The notes under the pieces are model-generated. The model saw nothing but the letters and a program-made list of their open reading frames with translations. It had not been told where the DNA came from and did not search any database. The position numbers and the translations under genes are program-made. Of a stretch of 64,000 nt of DNA, positions 8,264 through 19,146 are shown one piece after another. Within the stretch, counting starts at the first letter, position 1; each line of letters begins with the position of its first letter. The DNA comes from Gammaproteobacteria bacterium. Its GTDB lineage: Bacteria; Pseudomonadota; Gammaproteobacteria; Xanthomonadales; SZUA-36. The stretch lies in contig JAJFLA010000031.1 in assembly GCA_021772935.1 (NCBI GenBank), forward strand, positions 1 through 64,000, written 5' to 3'.

Positions 8264-8859
8264 TAAACAGCGATATCCCGCTCTTCCCCCTGCATACCGT
8301 TCTGTTTCCAGACGGTTATTTGCCATTGAGGATATTTGAGCAGCGTTATATTGACATGATTCGAGAATGCAGTGCCAAAGGGTGCTGCTTCGGGGTTTGC
8401 CTGATTAATAATTCAGAAAATGCCCACCAACCGGCCACCCACTTTCAAATGGGTACCACGGCCAAAATTTGTGACTTTTCCACCCTGGATGACGGCTTGC
8501 TGGGCATCACTGCACAGGGTCAACATAAGTTTGTCATTCAAAAAACTCGTATGCGGGACAACGGTCTGTTAATGGCTGAAGTTGAGATCTTGACCGAAAC
8601 CAGCCCTGTTGAGTTGCCAGCACAATTCTCCGTGCTATCAATGATAGCCGCACGCTTCATGGAGCAACTCGGTGAAAGGTATCCCACATTTCAGTCTGCG
8701 CTTTTGCAGGATGCCCACTGGATTGGGTACCGTCTGGCAGAATTGTTGCCGTTGGAGAACAATGAAAAACAAGTGCTATTGCAGATCAGTGACCCGCTCG
8801 AAAGACTGCAGTCACTGGTTGACGTAATGCCGCGCTTTCAGGGCTCCGCAGATACCTGA
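8260..8859 (+). CDS. LON-type substrate-binding domain protein
   Basis: The 199-residue protein matches the N-terminal (substrate-binding) domain of Lon proteases without the ATPase or protease parts. Typical residues are IPLFPLHTVLFPDG at the start, LPLRIFEQRYIDM, and a C-terminal helical part with LLQISDPLERLQ. Such stand-alone proteins occur widely in proteobacteria and have no settled biochemical role. The GTG start at 8260 is supported by TTGGGGAG just upstream and by overlap with the mpl stop. The last 22 bases overlap the convergent DedA-family gene. Confidence 0.85.
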   Translation: MINSDIPLFPLHTVLFPDGYLPLRIFEQRYIDMIRECSAKGCCFGVCLINNSENAHQPATHFQMGTTAKICDFSTLDDGLLGITAQGQHKFVIQKTRMRDNGLLMAEVEILTETSPVELPAQFSVLSMIAARFMEQLGERYPTFQSALLQDAHWIGYRLAELLPLENNEKQVLLQISDPLERLQSLVDVMPRFQGSADT

Positions 8860-10835
8860 GAGCTGCGAACTAACAACATCGAGTCACCACCCCATTTGAT
8901 TTGTAAACCCGCAGCCTCCTCCACCAGTTGCTGCAGGTTTCTTCGCGCAGCGGGTATTGCATGCCAATAACTGAAAACCTTCATTCTCTGAACCAGCACT
9001 TCTTTGGCAACCTGTCCCAAATAAACTGTTTGACCTGTTGGTTTCAACCTGACACCGGAGTCCCAAATGCGAATCGTCTCCTGTGATGATGGGTCACCAC
9101 CTAGTCGGTGTAATAATAAACTGTCGGCATGTCCGAGATAATCCTTCTTCAGCGGTGGCAGCGTAAACTCGGAGGGCTCCGGGTTCATCGACAATATGCT
9201 CCAGCGCCAGTTTGCTGGTTCTGCTTTTTGCCAACCATGGGCCGCAAGTAGCTGACCCAGGTGTTCCGGTGCTCCTGCAAATTGAAAATTAAACTCTCGC
9301 GCAGTAACCGATTTCAAGTGGGTGCGCTCACGCGGCAAGCTCTGCCATTCACCCTGCCACCAATCTTGAGCCTTGATTTCACGTTGTGGCAAGGGTAGTT
9401 TCAGCGCGGCAATGTCACCTTCCAGGTTCTGATCAACCTGCCAGGTAAACGTAGCTGCCAGCATGCCGAAAAAAATCAGGCTGGCAGCCATACCATTAAA
9501 AGACCGCAGTGCGCGTTGTCGATAAGCAATACCAACCACAAACGTCCATGCCATACCCAGCGCGACACCCATCAATGCCCCACTGAGCCAATCCAACCCG
9601 AGGTACAACCGGGCCAAAACCAACAACGACAGCAACAGACCCGTGATCGCATAAGGCCACTTTCGCTTTCGCCGTTTCAATTCCCTCGCGATCATTACGG
9701 CGAAATAACCCAGCACAACCGTCACCAGGGTCAGTGCGGCGCTTGGGTCGTACAAAATGTTGGCTTCGCCCTCACTCAGCAAAGGTGTTGCGCGTAACGA
9801 CCAGGCGAGCAGTATTTGTAGGATCACCCCTCCCCCCATCGCCACCAGCCAGTGCAAAGCCGCCTTTTGTCTACCAGCCCCAATCAACCACAACAGCACG
9901 GCCATTGAGGTCGGAATGAGCACCCACAAACGTGACAGTTGTGTTAGCGCAACCATTACCACATCGGCAATATGGTTTCTCAAAGCCAAAGCGTATGCCT
10001 GTACCGCCTGGTCAATGGATTGTGGATGAGCTGAAAACGGCGAGAGCAGTAACAACATCACGATGCCCCAGAAAACCATCACCAATAACAGGCCCATCAT
10101 GGTGATAGACAGCACCTCCGGTTGTGTCGAATCCAACAATGGCCCGGCAATACGTCTGAATATCGGGTGTCGGCGCAACCAGCGAATGACATGCCGCATC
10201 CAGCGTGCCGAGCGACTGGCCAAAAACTCATAAGCGGTCCAGATGACCCACCAGGTCAACCACAAAACCACCACAGCAATGATCAAAACCAGTGACATTC
10301 GTCCGGCATATTCAGATGCCACCTCAAGTGAAGCACCAAACAACATGCCTGGCAACAGGTAGGCCGGCGTCCAGGCGATGCAAGCTGGAATATCCACTAT
10401 TAAAAACCGCCGGAGGGTCAGACCCAACATGCCTGCGGTAACCGGAATCACAGGCCTGAGCGGGCCGACAAAACGACCTACAACCACGCTCTTTGGGCCA
10501 TGTACGCGGAAATAATCGCGCCCCCTTTCCAACATTCGAGGAAAGCGTGAAAAGGGCCATGTTTCCGGCAGCTGATTCCGATAACGTCGGCCAACGGCAT
10601 AGCTGACGAAGTCCCCGGCAAAGGCACCCGCTGAGCCCCACAACCAGATCGGGAACATGTCCATAGCACCAAGACTGATCAATGCGCCAAGACCGAATAG
10701 CAGGATGATGCCGGGTACCAGGATACCGACAAACGCCAGCGACTCCACAAAGGACATAATGAATACCCAGAAGCCCGCCCAGCCTGGGTTGGCAGTCAAC
10801 CAGTTCAACAGGTCCTGTGTCCAGCCTGTGTCCAT
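8838..10835 (-). CDS. DedA/VTT + PAP2-like + LssY C-terminal fusion membrane protein
   Basis: The 665-residue protein has three parts. Residues 1-205 are a DedA (SNARE-associated/VTT) domain with VVVGRFVGPLRPVIP at 117-131; DedA proteins are thought to move lipids across the inner membrane. Residues about 240-465 look like a PAP2 lipid phosphatase bundle. Residues about 470-660 are a soluble LssY-like domain. The PAP2 catalytic sites are degenerate: PSGH is PSAA at 364-367, and the SRxxxxxH site reads ARLYLGLD at 408-415, so both catalytic His residues are absent. It is therefore unlikely to be an active phosphatase. It overlaps the LON-domain gene tail to tail by 22 bases. Confidence 0.85.
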   Translation of the reverse strand: MDTGWTQDLLNWLTANPGWAGFWVFIMSFVESLAFVGILVPGIILLFGLGALISLGAMDMFPIWLWGSAGAFAGDFVSYAVGRRYRNQLPETWPFSRFPRMLERGRDYFRVHGPKSVVVGRFVGPLRPVIPVTAGMLGLTLRRFLIVDIPACIAWTPAYLLPGMLFGASLEVASEYAGRMSLVLIIAVVVLWLTWWVIWTAYEFLASRSARWMRHVIRWLRRHPIFRRIAGPLLDSTQPEVLSITMMGLLLVMVFWGIVMLLLLSPFSAHPQSIDQAVQAYALALRNHIADVVMVALTQLSRLWVLIPTSMAVLLWLIGAGRQKAALHWLVAMGGGVILQILLAWSLRATPLLSEGEANILYDPSAALTLVTVVLGYFAVMIARELKRRKRKWPYAITGLLLSLLVLARLYLGLDWLSGALMGVALGMAWTFVVGIAYRQRALRSFNGMAASLIFFGMLAATFTWQVDQNLEGDIAALKLPLPQREIKAQDWWQGEWQSLPRERTHLKSVTAREFNFQFAGAPEHLGQLLAAHGWQKAEPANWRWSILSMNPEPSEFTLPPLKKDYLGHADSLLLHRLGGDPSSQETIRIWDSGVRLKPTGQTVYLGQVAKEVLVQRMKVFSYWHAIPAARRNLQQLVEEAAGLQIKWGGDSMLLVRSSQVSAEP

Positions 10836-14388: not shown

Positions 14389-14937
14389 TCAGTTCACGGT
14401 AGCGACTTCTATCTCCGGGGCAACACCAACATCCAGCGCACCCATCACACCGCTGTAATATTTTGGATCAATATCGCCCATCACATTGACCACAACGACG
14501 TCTTCATTGTCAACAGAAACGACGGTTAGCCCTTGTACCCGGTTTCCGGACGAGCGGGTAAACATTTGCACATATTCACCTTCCTCGCGCACCAGCATAA
14601 CCGGTTGCCAACCATCGCTATTTAACTTTTGGCCCATGTGTTCAAACTTTTGCGCAATTCTGTCACTGTCCCCTGTGACCTCGTAAACACGGACCCGCAC
14701 CCCGTCCAGACTTCTGAGTAAAGCCCGGATTTCCGGATCATCATCCAGGAAGCGAGCCGCGAGGCGTAAGGTCGTGCGACCCAGTGACAATGAGAAGGTG
14801 CGGTCGGTGTCTCTCATTCCCGGTGAATCAAGGTTGGCATAACCAGCATTGCCGCGTGGCGCTGTGATGTGGCAAGAAGCCAACATAAAAGCCATTAAAA
14901 CCAACCCAAAGCCGGAGGAAATGCGATGTTTGATCAT
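14389..14937 (-). CDS. DUF4252 lipoprotein, second of a tandem pair
   Basis: From the ATG at 14937 the protein has 182 residues. It starts with a signal peptide ending in a lipobox (LASC), so the mature form is probably lipid-anchored. The rest is a DUF4252 domain with VRVRVYEVTGDSD and VVVVNVMGDIDPKY. GGAA upstream supports 14937; in-frame ATGs at 14943, 14949 and further back to 14985 are possible. It follows its paralogue by 16 bases in the ECF sigma operon. Function is unknown; DUF4252 genes often accompany sigma/anti-sigma pairs. Confidence 0.75.
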   Translation of the reverse strand: MIKHRISSGFGLVLMAFMLASCHITAPRGNAGYANLDSPGMRDTDRTFSLSLGRTTLRLAARFLDDDPEIRALLRSLDGVRVRVYEVTGDSDRIAQKFEHMGQKLNSDGWQPVMLVREEGEYVQMFTRSSGNRVQGLTVVSVDNEDVVVVNVMGDIDPKYYSGVMGALDVGVAPEIEVATVN

Positions 14938-14953
14938 TGTCATTTCCATCTGG

Positions 14954-15496
14954 TCAGTCCAGATCCAGGTCCACATCGACATCAAAGCTTTCCATGACCT
15001 TACCCAGTTCGGCAGGGTTCAGCTGACCAATGATATTTACAAACACAGCTTCCTCCCCATCAACCGCCATTACGGTCATGCCTTCCATGTGGCCAGCCTC
15101 CATTTTCATGTAAACCAGAACCTGCTCATCGTCTTCATTAACCTGCACTATAGGCTCCCAACCAGAGGACTTAAGATCACCCTTGACCTTGCTGTACTGT
15201 TGACTGGCTGCCTCAAGGTTTTCATCGGTTTCATAAATCTGTACCCGAATGCCCTTGAGCTTGGAAATAAGTTTTGATGTTTCCGGGCTTTTTGCCGAAC
15301 TCATCATGCCAACAAAACCGAGCATGGTTCCGCCCAGGTTGATGGTAATTTTTGGCTCGCCGTAGGTGGCTGACAAGTCGCCAAAATCGACATAACCCGG
15401 CAAATCCTTGAGCTCGTCTTCCTGCGCAATGACTGGCAGTGCCAGTAATGTGCAGAATAATCCTGTAACCCATTTTTTCATCACTGATTGTTTCAT
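14954..15496 (-). CDS. DUF4252 exported protein, first of a tandem pair
   Basis: The 180-residue protein has a signal peptide with a cleavage site around residue 24 (ALPVIAQE), so it is periplasmic or outer-membrane associated. It shares with its neighbour the block GIRVQIYETDEN, the GWEPIVQV segment and the late VFVNIIGQLNPAELGK; the similarity shows a tandem duplication followed by divergence. Acidic residues dominate the C-terminal end (VDVDLDLD). The start has AAGGAGA upstream and overlaps the stop of the anti-sigma gene by four bases, so translation is coupled. The biochemical role is unknown. Confidence 0.78.
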   Translation of the reverse strand: MKQSVMKKWVTGLFCTLLALPVIAQEDELKDLPGYVDFGDLSATYGEPKITINLGGTMLGFVGMMSSAKSPETSKLISKLKGIRVQIYETDENLEAASQQYSKVKGDLKSSGWEPIVQVNEDDEQVLVYMKMEAGHMEGMTVMAVDGEEAVFVNIIGQLNPAELGKVMESFDVDVDLDLD

Positions 15497-16011
15497 ACTT
15501 TTTTCTCCTTGGAGCTTAGATGTTGTGATTTGATAACCCTGTTGATCGACCCGGTCACAGCGTTTGCCATTGTTCGTCCAACTGTTGATTCAATCTCTCG
15601 CCCGGTCATGACACCGGCTTTATCAAGGTAGGCAAATGCTATTGCCATCTCCTCTCGCGCCTGGGCAATTTCACTTGCAGGTGGCGTGTCCGGGCGCATC
15701 AGGCTGACCACGATGAGCGTCAGCGGAATTGCCGCCAGCACCATCGCCCAGCGAGGCTGAAACAGCCTAAACGCTGGCGCTGGCTGCTTCCTGCGGGGTA
15801 TCGCTTTAAGCTTCTTTCTGAGGCTATCCGGCGCTCGTTCAACATGGATGTTTTCCATTGCTTTTTGAAGTTGATAAGCACTAATAATGGCTGCAGCCAG
15901 ATCGCCATCACCCAAAGCATCGGCTTTAAGTTTCTCTGCACCCTTTGGGCTCAATTCACCATCAAGCAATGCGTTGATCTGAACTTCCCATTCTTCATCA
16001 TATTCATTCAT
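15493..16011 (-). CDS. Putative membrane anti-sigma factor
   Basis: The 172-residue protein has a cytoplasmic N-terminal part (residues 1-85) with INALLDGELSPKGAEKL, typical of anti-sigma domains. One transmembrane helix follows at about 88-104 (AMVLAAIPLTLIVVSL), then a short periplasmic tail. There is no zinc-binding HCC motif, so it is not a ZAS-type anti-sigma. Its start overlaps the sigma-factor stop by four bases (ATGA), the usual arrangement for a sigma factor and its inhibitor. The assignment is by architecture and context. Confidence 0.7.
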   Translation of the reverse strand: MNEYDEEWEVQINALLDGELSPKGAEKLKADALGDGDLAAAIISAYQLQKAMENIHVERAPDSLRKKLKAIPRRKQPAPAFRLFQPRWAMVLAAIPLTLIVVSLMRPDTPPASEIAQAREEMAIAFAYLDKAGVMTGREIESTVGRTMANAVTGSINRVIKSQHLSSKEKKV

Positions 16012-16502
16012 GGTCTTACCTCAGCCAACTGCTCTCGCAACTGCTTTCTCGCTCGGTGCAGGTAAGTCTTTACCTGCGCCAGGTTTAGTTCCAACATGCC
16101 CGCCACTTCTTCGTAGCTGTGTTGGTTTACATCCCGCAACACAACCAGTGATCGGTAGGGTTCTTTCAGTCCACCAATAGCGCGCTGCAACCAGGCCCGT
16201 GTTTCATTGGCCGCCACACCCTGTAAGGGTCCGCTGACTTCTCCGGCCATGTGACTTTCATCAAACTCCACGTTATCCCGTCTGCGCCTGAGCCGATCAA
16301 GACAACCGTTGCGTGTCACTTTCATCAACCACGGCTTAACCCGCTCAGGGTCGATTTTGTCCCGGTTGTTCCAGAGCTTCACAAATGCTTCCTGGGTTGC
16401 ATCTTCTGCCTCCTGGGCATCTTTCAAAATATAGCGCGCCACCGTCCAGGCTTGATCCTGATACTGCTTCACCCATTGACGGTATCTTTTGCTCATGTTC
16501 AT
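16008..16502 (-). CDS. ECF-type RNA polymerase sigma factor
   Basis: This is a sigma-70 family factor of the ECF group, about 164 residues from the ATG at 16502. Region 2 is visible in QDQAWTVARYILKDAQEAED and TQEAFVKLWNN, and region 4 in LVVLRDVNQHSYEEVAGML with LAQVKTYLHRARKQL. No region 3 is present. A GTG at 16520 gives a six-residue extension. It heads a four-gene unit with the anti-sigma and two DUF4252 genes, all overlapping or closely spaced. It probably directs transcription of its own operon in response to an envelope signal (inference). Confidence 0.85.
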   Translation of the reverse strand: MNMSKRYRQWVKQYQDQAWTVARYILKDAQEAEDATQEAFVKLWNNRDKIDPERVKPWLMKVTRNGCLDRLRRRRDNVEFDESHMAGEVSGPLQGVAANETRAWLQRAIGGLKEPYRSLVVLRDVNQHSYEEVAGMLELNLAQVKTYLHRARKQLREQLAEVRP

Positions 16503-16590
16503 CAGAATATACGCAGCCACGGCGCAATAGTTACAGTCTTTGTTAAAATTACATCAAAAATCACTCACGCAGACCCCAAATGGATGATCG

Positions 16591-16941
16591 ATGGACATGG
16601 TAAAAACCGACCTGCAACGCTTTCAATCATTATTATTAAAGCTCCAAGCTGAGCTACACAGTATCGGGGAAACCAGTCAGCAGGCCGAAACTGTTGTTGA
16701 ACTGGACCAGGCCCGTGTGGGCAGGCTGTCGCGAATGGATGCCATGCAGGCACAGGCTATGTCATTGGAAACTGGCCGACGAAGGCGACAACAGCTGGTT
16801 AAAATTACTGCCGCTCTCGAACGTGTCTGTAACGGTGACTATGGTGAGTGCTTTGAATGTGGTGAAGCCATTAACCCGAGACGCCTTGAAGCAGACCTTA
16901 CCGCGACACTTTGTATCGTTTGTGCTGAGGCGCAGGAATAA
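16591..16941 (+). CDS. TraR/DksA-family zinc-finger protein
   Basis: The 116-residue protein has a coiled-coil-forming N-terminal half and a C4 zinc finger with Cys87, Cys90, Cys108 and Cys111 (CFECG and CIVC). The sequence ELDQARVGRLSRMDAMQAQAM occupies the coiled-coil tip region. DksA-like proteins bind the secondary channel of RNA polymerase; this shorter relative lacks the length of true DksA (about 150 residues), so its effect on transcription is unproven. It is divergent from the ECF sigma gene. Confidence 0.85.
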   Translation: MDMVKTDLQRFQSLLLKLQAELHSIGETSQQAETVVELDQARVGRLSRMDAMQAQAMSLETGRRRRQQLVKITAALERVCNGDYGECFECGEAINPRRLEADLTATLCIVCAEAQE

Positions 16942-17014
16942 CTCAGTTGATGCCAATAAGGCCCCGCCAGACCGTTGCGCGTTAAAGCCTGCCCAAAAAA
17001 CCACTCCAGTTGCT

Positions 17015-17043
17015 CTTGAAATGTCGGCCTAATATCCCCAACT
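17015..17043 (+). promoter_or_regulatory. Sigma-32 heat-shock promoter of groESL
   Basis: CTTGAAA at 17015-17021, a 14-base spacer and CCCCAACT at 17036-17043 match the heat-shock consensus (CTTGAAA, then CCCCATNT) with one mismatch. It lies about 120 bases before the groES start. No CIRCE repeat for HrcA was seen, so control is probably by RpoH. Confidence 0.85.
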
Positions 17044-17166
17044 CTGCAGGCAGGCTGCGGAATACTGTAAAGTCAGATCATCCACAGGCACACAACAGAC
17101 CGCGACGATTAAACCGTTGCGGTTTTATGTTCAATTTAATTGGTAATTATTTAGGGAGAAATTCCG

Positions 17167-17457
17167 ATGAAACTTCGTCCTTTACACGACCGAGTCATTG
17201 TGAAACGAATGGAAGAAGAGCGTATGTCCGCTGGCGGCATCGTGATTCCAGACTCAGCAGCTGAAAAACCTGTCCGCGGCGAAGTGCTTGCGGTAGGTAA
17301 CGGTAAAATTCTCGATAACGGTGACAAACGCGCGCTGGATATCAGCGTAGGTGACACCATCCTGTTCGGTAAATATTCGGGAACAGAAGTAAAAGTGGAT
17401 GGTGAAGAACTGCTTGTCATGCGCGAAGAAGACATTATGGCGGTTATCGAAAACTGA
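17167..17457 (+). CDS. groES: Co-chaperonin GroES
   Basis: This 96-residue protein caps the GroEL cage in the cytoplasm. It begins [18 protein letters not shown], has the mobile loop segment [13 protein letters not shown] and the core [29 protein letters not shown] precedes the start. groEL begins 39 bases downstream; both are driven by the sigma-32 promoter upstream. Confidence 0.98.
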
Positions 17458-17493
17458 TAGCCCCTTTCAAGTATTGAACAAATTGAGGATTAG

Positions 17494-19146
<1,653 letters not shown>

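Follow-up and report, generated by a model that had tools for sequence, protein, structure and literature searches.

A predicted autoregulated ECF sigma switch in a gammaproteobacterium, with a DUF4252 protein pair as its probable dedicated output

The layout described here is not new in Bacteroidota, in which NCBIfam already names an extracytoplasmic function (ECF) sigma factor, a GFO_1090 protein and a GFO_1091 lipoprotein, without giving them a function. Expression has been recorded for two relatives, in papers that are cited here and below by PMC number for the portions of text and tables accessible to us. When a P. gingivalis strain mutated in PG_0686 was exposed to peroxide, PG_0214 to PG_0218 rose 9.7-, 10.6-, 8.2-, 6.8- and 5.3-fold, and PG_0985 to PG_0987 rose 6.1-, 7.1- and 5.6-fold (PMC10101095). 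In a three-species biofilm, a P. bivia sigma gene, a neighbouring hypothetical gene and three DUF4252 genes were among the genes listed as downregulated, by -3.0 to -4.0 (PMC11410844). In the accessible data of these peroxide and biofilm transcriptomes, the genes of the cassette move together; whether genes downstream of the Porphyromonas sigma genes encode anti-sigma factors was described as unresolved (PMC7712824). We analyzed a related locus in a 64-kb stretch of gammaproteobacterial DNA (contig JAJFLA010000031.1, positions 1 to 64,000; hereafter the window), where a sigma gene, an anti-sigma candidate and two DUF4252 genes lie together. Comparison with relatives leads us to read the locus, with a probability of roughly 0.7, as an ECF sigma/anti-sigma switch that regulates itself and is dedicated to producing the two DUF4252 proteins.

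The four genes follow each other in tight order on the minus strand. The first (16008..16496) encodes an ECF sigma factor of the PG0214/GFO_1088 family, with Pfam matches to Sigma70_r2 (2.6e-18) and Sigma70_r4_2 (1.3e-14); its start is taken as the ATG at 16496 (MSKRY), and a second in-frame ATG lies at 16502. It overlaps by 4 nucleotides the gene of a membrane anti-sigma candidate (15493..16011), which in turn overlaps by 4 nucleotides the gene of DUF4252-A (14954..15496), a predicted secreted, soluble periplasmic protein with a signal peptide recognized by eye. A gap of 4 nucleotides separates DUF4252-A from DUF4252-B (14389..14949), a predicted lipoprotein with the lipobox LASC-H, also read by eye. 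Both proteins match Pfam DUF4252 (PF14060, cut-off 23.9), A at 1.4e-21 (77.4 bits) and B at 5e-21 (75.6 bits), and the window genome has no further match at an E value of 1 or better. Coordinates, overlaps and Pfam matches bear out the initial annotation, which had placed four overlapping or nearly touching genes here. The single operon that it proposed agrees with the tight packing and with the position of a sigma gene just upstream of DUF4252 in 33 of 34 loci from the window's family (the window included; the exception ends at a contig end). Rfam gave no match to a structured RNA leader between 13000 and 17500, and scans for sigma-70-type promoters and terminators returned no more matches than shuffled sequences.

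For comparison, we scanned named genomes with an A-type query and kept 79 loci, the best of 178 matches, mostly from metagenome-assembled genomes (MAGs); loci with B alone are not represented in this set. A sigma gene lies upstream in 63 of the 79 loci and a second DUF4252 gene is present in 69. The region 5' of sigma carries the motif TGTAAC-N16-CGTWTA, which in the window reads TGTAAC-N16-CGTATA (16508..16535, minus strand) and is predicted to be an autoregulatory ECF promoter. Of 62 usable loci, 60 have its strict form, TGTAAC-N15..17-CGT, before sigma (L153 was omitted because its contig begins inside sigma); dinucleotide-shuffled sequences gave a mean of 0.06, and 1 of 607 regions that precede other open reading frames of these loci has it. 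Fifty-one of the 60 loci have a spacer of 16 and the other 9 a spacer of 17, and one of the two loci that miss the strict motif, L203, carries TGCAAC. By sequence comparison, the hallmark of an autoregulated ECF factor, a sigma-specific promoter at its own operon, is therefore present. Among Bacteroidota loci with sigma (29 of 30; L297, which has none, was omitted), a wider form of the motif (TG[TC]AAC, spacer 15-18) was found in 23 of 29. The predicted TGTAAC-N16/17-CGT promoter before sigma is a new finding: our search of the open-access literature, with subscription literature mostly outside it, returned no paper on this promoter, and none on DUF4252 function.

The distance from promoter to gene is short. 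The first in-frame start codon lies no more than 15 nucleotides past the -10 hexamer in 49 of the 60 promoter-bearing loci, typically 7-10, and the window sigma would start 11 (MSKRY) or 5 nucleotides (ATG at 16502) past it. Transcription start sites are usually found about 6-8 nucleotides beyond the -10, so that the leader would comprise a few bases, which suggests that the sigma mRNA is nearly leaderless.

DUF4252 genes located away from sigma point to the same promoter. When the genome has a matching sigma, the strict motif lies upstream of 6 of 8 unlinked DUF4252 genes (L083, L088, L089, L093, L196 and L257), with a relaxed form upstream of a seventh (L085). This tally sets apart L092, L204 and L208 for their ambiguous sigma status (L208 has the motif and its genome was outside the sigma search), as well as L205, which has no motif, lies at a contig start and belongs to a genome outside that search; it omits L273, a near-copy of the case in genome G039, and five truncated contigs (L140, L146, L186, L193, L212). 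Matching sigmas score 201-228 bits against the profile when linked, and 173 and 145 bits in a KSB1 and a Verrucomicrobiales genome, where sigma sits with a further DUF4252 gene at another place; generic ECF sigmas among the best matches of other genomes reach 114 bits or less. Seven DUF4252 loci (L173, L174, L175, L181, L197, L201, L213) belong to genomes whose best ECF match is at or below 114 bits, and none of the seven has the strict motif; L197 and L213 have TGCAAC variants. The best ECF match of G799 is followed by RseA- and RseB-like genes, recognized by eye. Halieaceae-type genomes (L173 to L175) keep the DUF4252 pair with neither a matching sigma nor the strict motif, and the absence of sigma is more credible here because these genomes are isolates. 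At L181 (4992-8669), two DUF4252 pairs occupy one site with no nearby sigma and no strict promoter.

We next consider how far the regulon extends. The window genome has a single copy of the exact motif TGTAAC-N15..17-CGTWTA, the one at sigma. With a spacer of 16 the motif stands at sigma in 10 of 10 genomes of the genus and elsewhere only in G007, at two sites (L097, L104) with no convincing gene downstream. A one-mismatch scan of the window genome gave 35 matches compared with 52 in a reversed control, so that the motif gives no sign of a wider regulon, and a large regulon in this genome is unsupported. In two other genomes, G028 and G039, TGTAAC-N16-CGTA has 12 matches against 6 in the reversed control, and 5 of the 12 are DUF4252 loci. 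These numbers speak against a general RpoE-like envelope-stress sigma for which the operon is one target among many, an explanation that we consider improbable although a membrane anti-sigma and envelope targets would fit it. Two further matches in G028 and G039, one per genome, precede homologous secreted DUF4440 proteins (53% identical), whose genes begin about 60 bp after the site (L224:1562-2023 in G039; L221:1006-1461, minus strand, in G028). DUF4440 is thus a possible second sigma target in another family of the order. Separately, G039 encodes a putative lipoprotein with no Pfam match (L216:1558-2223) that begins about 50 bp past the start of a good TGTAAC-CTTT promoter match.

Several observations weigh against a dedicated switch. 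The search used the exact consensus, which weak sites would escape, and the secreted DUF4440 protein of family f5 carries the motif in 2 of 2 genomes, which also suits a broad regulon. The unlinked gene L081 has no motif although its genome has a matching sigma; L204 has none although its genome has the 145-bit sigma; and L092 carries the motif in a genome, 62% complete, in which no matching sigma was found. The fold matches of the anti-sigma candidate described below have E values of 0.7 or worse. Finally, Porphyromonas SigCH is reported to control cdhR and hmuYR, which lie outside the cassette and would again fit a broader regulon. SigCH is probably the same sigma as PG0214, since PGN_0319 appears to be PG0214 from two lists in the accessible part of PMC9862357; if so, its reported targets differ from the picture in the window.

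The SigCH report raises a more specific alternative, in which the switch answers hemin or iron and the DUF4252 proteins take part in heme handling. PG0985-87 indeed appear in an iron-dependent stimulon table (PMC10434189, as far as accessible). However, no exact copy of the motif in the window genome stands at a heme gene, the hemL gene nearby serves biosynthesis and belongs to a family-wide synteny, and the same cassettes respond also in the peroxide and biofilm experiments. We regard a heme or iron response as doubtful.

The two DUF4252 proteins of the preferred reading, in which they are the output of the switch, have conserved and different addresses. In 78 of 79 loci, A is without a lipobox. 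A strict lipobox is present in 47 of 69 B proteins, none of them with aspartate at +2; inspection by eye shows a degenerate lipobox in some of the remaining 22 and a membrane helix at the N terminus in others. The window B, in which +2 is not aspartate, is for this reason predicted to be sorted to the outer membrane. From these signals, A is soluble and B mostly lipid-anchored, so that the suggestion of one domain anchored differently at two places in the envelope holds beyond the window. A and B share 33% identity over 105 residues (E 5e-16). In a quick tree of 30 A and 30 B rows, made without bootstrap, the A and B labels need 2 changes compared with a mean of 20.3 after shuffling, and A as a single clade is not rejected (approximately unbiased test, p-AU 0.30). 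By this tree, A and B are ancient paralogues and a recent tandem duplication is ruled out: of the duplication proposed initially, the adjacent paralogues stand, whereas the recent origin that the term suggests does not. In Teredinibacter waterburyi (L183:5584-6159), a second DUF4252 protein falls among the A rows on a long branch and is perhaps a copy of A that later took the place of B.

We found no solved structure related to DUF4252-A by sequence. Its predicted model (predicted local distance difference test, pLDDT, 85.3) gave no Foldseek match at an E value of 0.001 or better; no RseB-type match was listed, which excludes nothing. DcrB of Salmonella (PDB 6e8a) is the best structural match (Foldseek E 6.9e-3, probability 0.99), aligning with Z 8.6 and a root-mean-square deviation of 4.5 over 105 residues, but at a TM-score of only 0.34-0.40 and 9-11% identity it is a lead and not homology.

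The second gene of the operon encodes the anti-sigma candidate. Its AlphaFold model (pLDDT 76, predicted TM-score, pTM, 0.39) has cytoplasmic helices at 6-70, one helix of transmembrane length at 88-105 and a long periplasmic C-terminal helix at 112-170, and the N-terminal helices with one membrane helix would fit the layout of class I type anti-sigma factors. Foldseek matches are weak (best E 0.7), with RsiW, MucA and RslA at the top and RseA further down. The window protein contains no cysteine and scores 13.6 bits against zf-HC2 (PF13490), below the cut-off of 22.2; homologues at the same position exceed that cut-off in 6 of 10 tested loci (L194, L199, L200, L203, L207, L209). Given zf-HC2 in the cassette homologues, the window protein is most readily interpreted as a derivative without zinc. 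The model helix, these zinc-finger partners and the fold matches agree with the single-helix membrane anti-sigma candidate of the initial annotation. Several homologues have much shortened cytoplasmic parts and retain one pre-membrane helix and the periplasmic helix (L177:4605-4979, L185:4618-5001, L060:2885-3328 and similar ones).

Across 57 homologues, mean relative entropy is highest in the membrane-proximal periplasmic helix (113-131), at 2.10 compared with 1.61 for the cytoplasmic helices. This conservation would suit a different role for the pair, in which A and/or B are co-anti-sigma factors, RseB- or AabB-like, that bind the periplasmic helix and report the state of the envelope, being inputs first and outputs as feedback. 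The predicted cotranscription with the anti-sigma gene fits this role, as does the retention of A, together with sigma and anti-sigma, in four family genomes in which B is missing (L059, L061, L064) or internally deleted (L072); furthermore, the predicted periplasmic protein of the Acinetobacter baumannii sigAb operon has anti-sigma activity, according to the accessible part of PMC12153292. The Halieaceae, which retain the pair without a matching sigma, and the unlinked DUF4252 genes, which usually carry the sigma promoter, suit an output better. We therefore judge sensing as the primary role to be rather unlikely. Where a sensing or effector pair had been left as alternatives, an effector pair is now favoured and sensing less so, and both may hold.

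The cassette is widespread in the window's family and scattered beyond it. Of the 39 family genomes, 34 carry DUF4252 and 30 carry two copies of it. In a sample of 369 genomes from the class, 5 have it (4 above the cut-off; the window genome counted), and among 398 sampled genomes of the phylum the window genome alone has it. Of 198 genomes sampled around a Bacteroidota genome, 60 have DUF4252. Close relatives in the named-genome scan are uncultured gammaproteobacteria, mostly MAGs of Lysobacterales, Xanthomonadales or Oceanospirillales. Gammaproteobacterial hosts among the 79 loci include Colwellia, Alteromonas, Pseudohalioglobus, Arenicella, Teredinibacter and Gilvimarinus, and the others include Bacteroidota, Rhodothermales, Ignavibacteria, KSB1, Gemmatimonadota, Latescibacterota, Zixibacteria and Verrucomicrobiota. 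By these comparisons, the cassette is now seen in Gammaproteobacteria, Gemmatimonadota, Ignavibacteria, KSB1 and other groups. Homologues on plasmids or in E. coli were looked for and none was found. Because cassette and promoter recur together in distant phyla, the DUF4252 pair is probably the main product of the switch.

The surroundings of the operon are conserved as well: DUF192, cpdA-like, hemL, dksA-like and groESL neighbours are syntenic across the family, and we found no functional link between them and the sigma switch. Divergent from the operon, at 16591-19146 on the plus strand, lie a dksA/traR-type zinc-finger protein gene and groES-groEL, which many family genomes keep. Further away (8838-10835, minus strand), a 665-residue protein matches a VTT domain (DedA type) and LssY_C, with a sub-threshold PAP2 stretch.

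Comparison gives good support to the core of our reading, in which an autoregulated sigma factor is paired with a membrane anti-sigma and has DUF4252 as its output. At rest, the anti-sigma would hold sigma through its N-terminal domain. A signal from the envelope would act on the conserved helix in the periplasm and free sigma, which is predicted to read TGTAAC-N16-CGTWTA before its own operon, a site identified by comparison. The operon would then yield sigma from a nearly leaderless message, as the short promoter-to-start distance predicts, together with the anti-sigma, soluble DUF4252-A and lipid-anchored DUF4252-B. The pair, whose fold is possibly DcrB/PsbP-like, may act in the periplasm and at the outer membrane and could also exert feedback on the anti-sigma. 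More tentatively, we propose an almost private regulon that extends from Gammaproteobacteria to Bacteroidota, Gemmatimonadota and KSB1 and serves to make the two DUF4252 proteins, in cis or in trans, through a message almost without a leader, the soluble and the lipid-anchored member forming a two-place envelope device that could protect the envelope and close the loop on the anti-sigma. The comparison makes these ideas testable through a single promoter rule, a specific anti-sigma candidate whose periplasmic helix is conserved, and two output proteins with conserved addresses. Halieaceae with the pair but no matching sigma are natural controls, and unlinked targets separate effector from sensor models. 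A sigma factor with few targets and an apparently leaderless message is also relevant to those who build or study orthogonal sigma switches.

Among described systems, the GFO_1088, GFO_1090 and GFO_1091 families of Bacteroidota, including Porphyromonas PG0214-PG0218, are closest to the window. They share with it the order sigma, membrane protein, DUF4252, DUF4252 lipoprotein and the type of promoter, and the window sigma scores 134.7 bits against NF058625 (PG0214/GFO_1088), above the cut-off of 130; sigmas of near relatives fall just below it (L139 127.3, L165 119.0, L183 119.1, L199 127.2, L207 125.5). The window differs in its gammaproteobacterial host, its spacer of 16 and its DUF4252 proteins, which score 31.3 (A) and 18.3 bits (B) against NF058626 (GFO_1090, cut-off 150); against NF058619 (GFO_1091 lipoprotein, cut-off 115), A scores 18.3 and B has no listed match. 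In the Bacteroidota locus L280, sigma, the first and the second DUF4252 protein score 224 (NF058625), 231 (NF058626) and 247 bits (NF058619), in this order. With scores so far under the cut-offs, the window DUF4252 proteins are distant relatives of GFO_1090 and GFO_1091 and not equivalog members.

SigAb-AabA-AabB of A. baumannii (PMC12153292) is likewise a small ECF operon that regulates itself, has few direct targets and encodes one partner in the membrane and another predicted to be periplasmic. The accessible part of that paper reports no DUF4252 protein and names RelA and a small RNA among the targets, and the likeness is one of working and not a family link. RpoE-RseA-RseB and AlgU-MucA have a membrane anti-sigma, as is predicted here, and the weak fold matches of our model include MucA and RseA. 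In contrast to these systems, the partners in the window are DUF4252 proteins, of which A has fold matches too weak for a comparison with RseB, and the window genome has one exact promoter site instead of a broad regulon.
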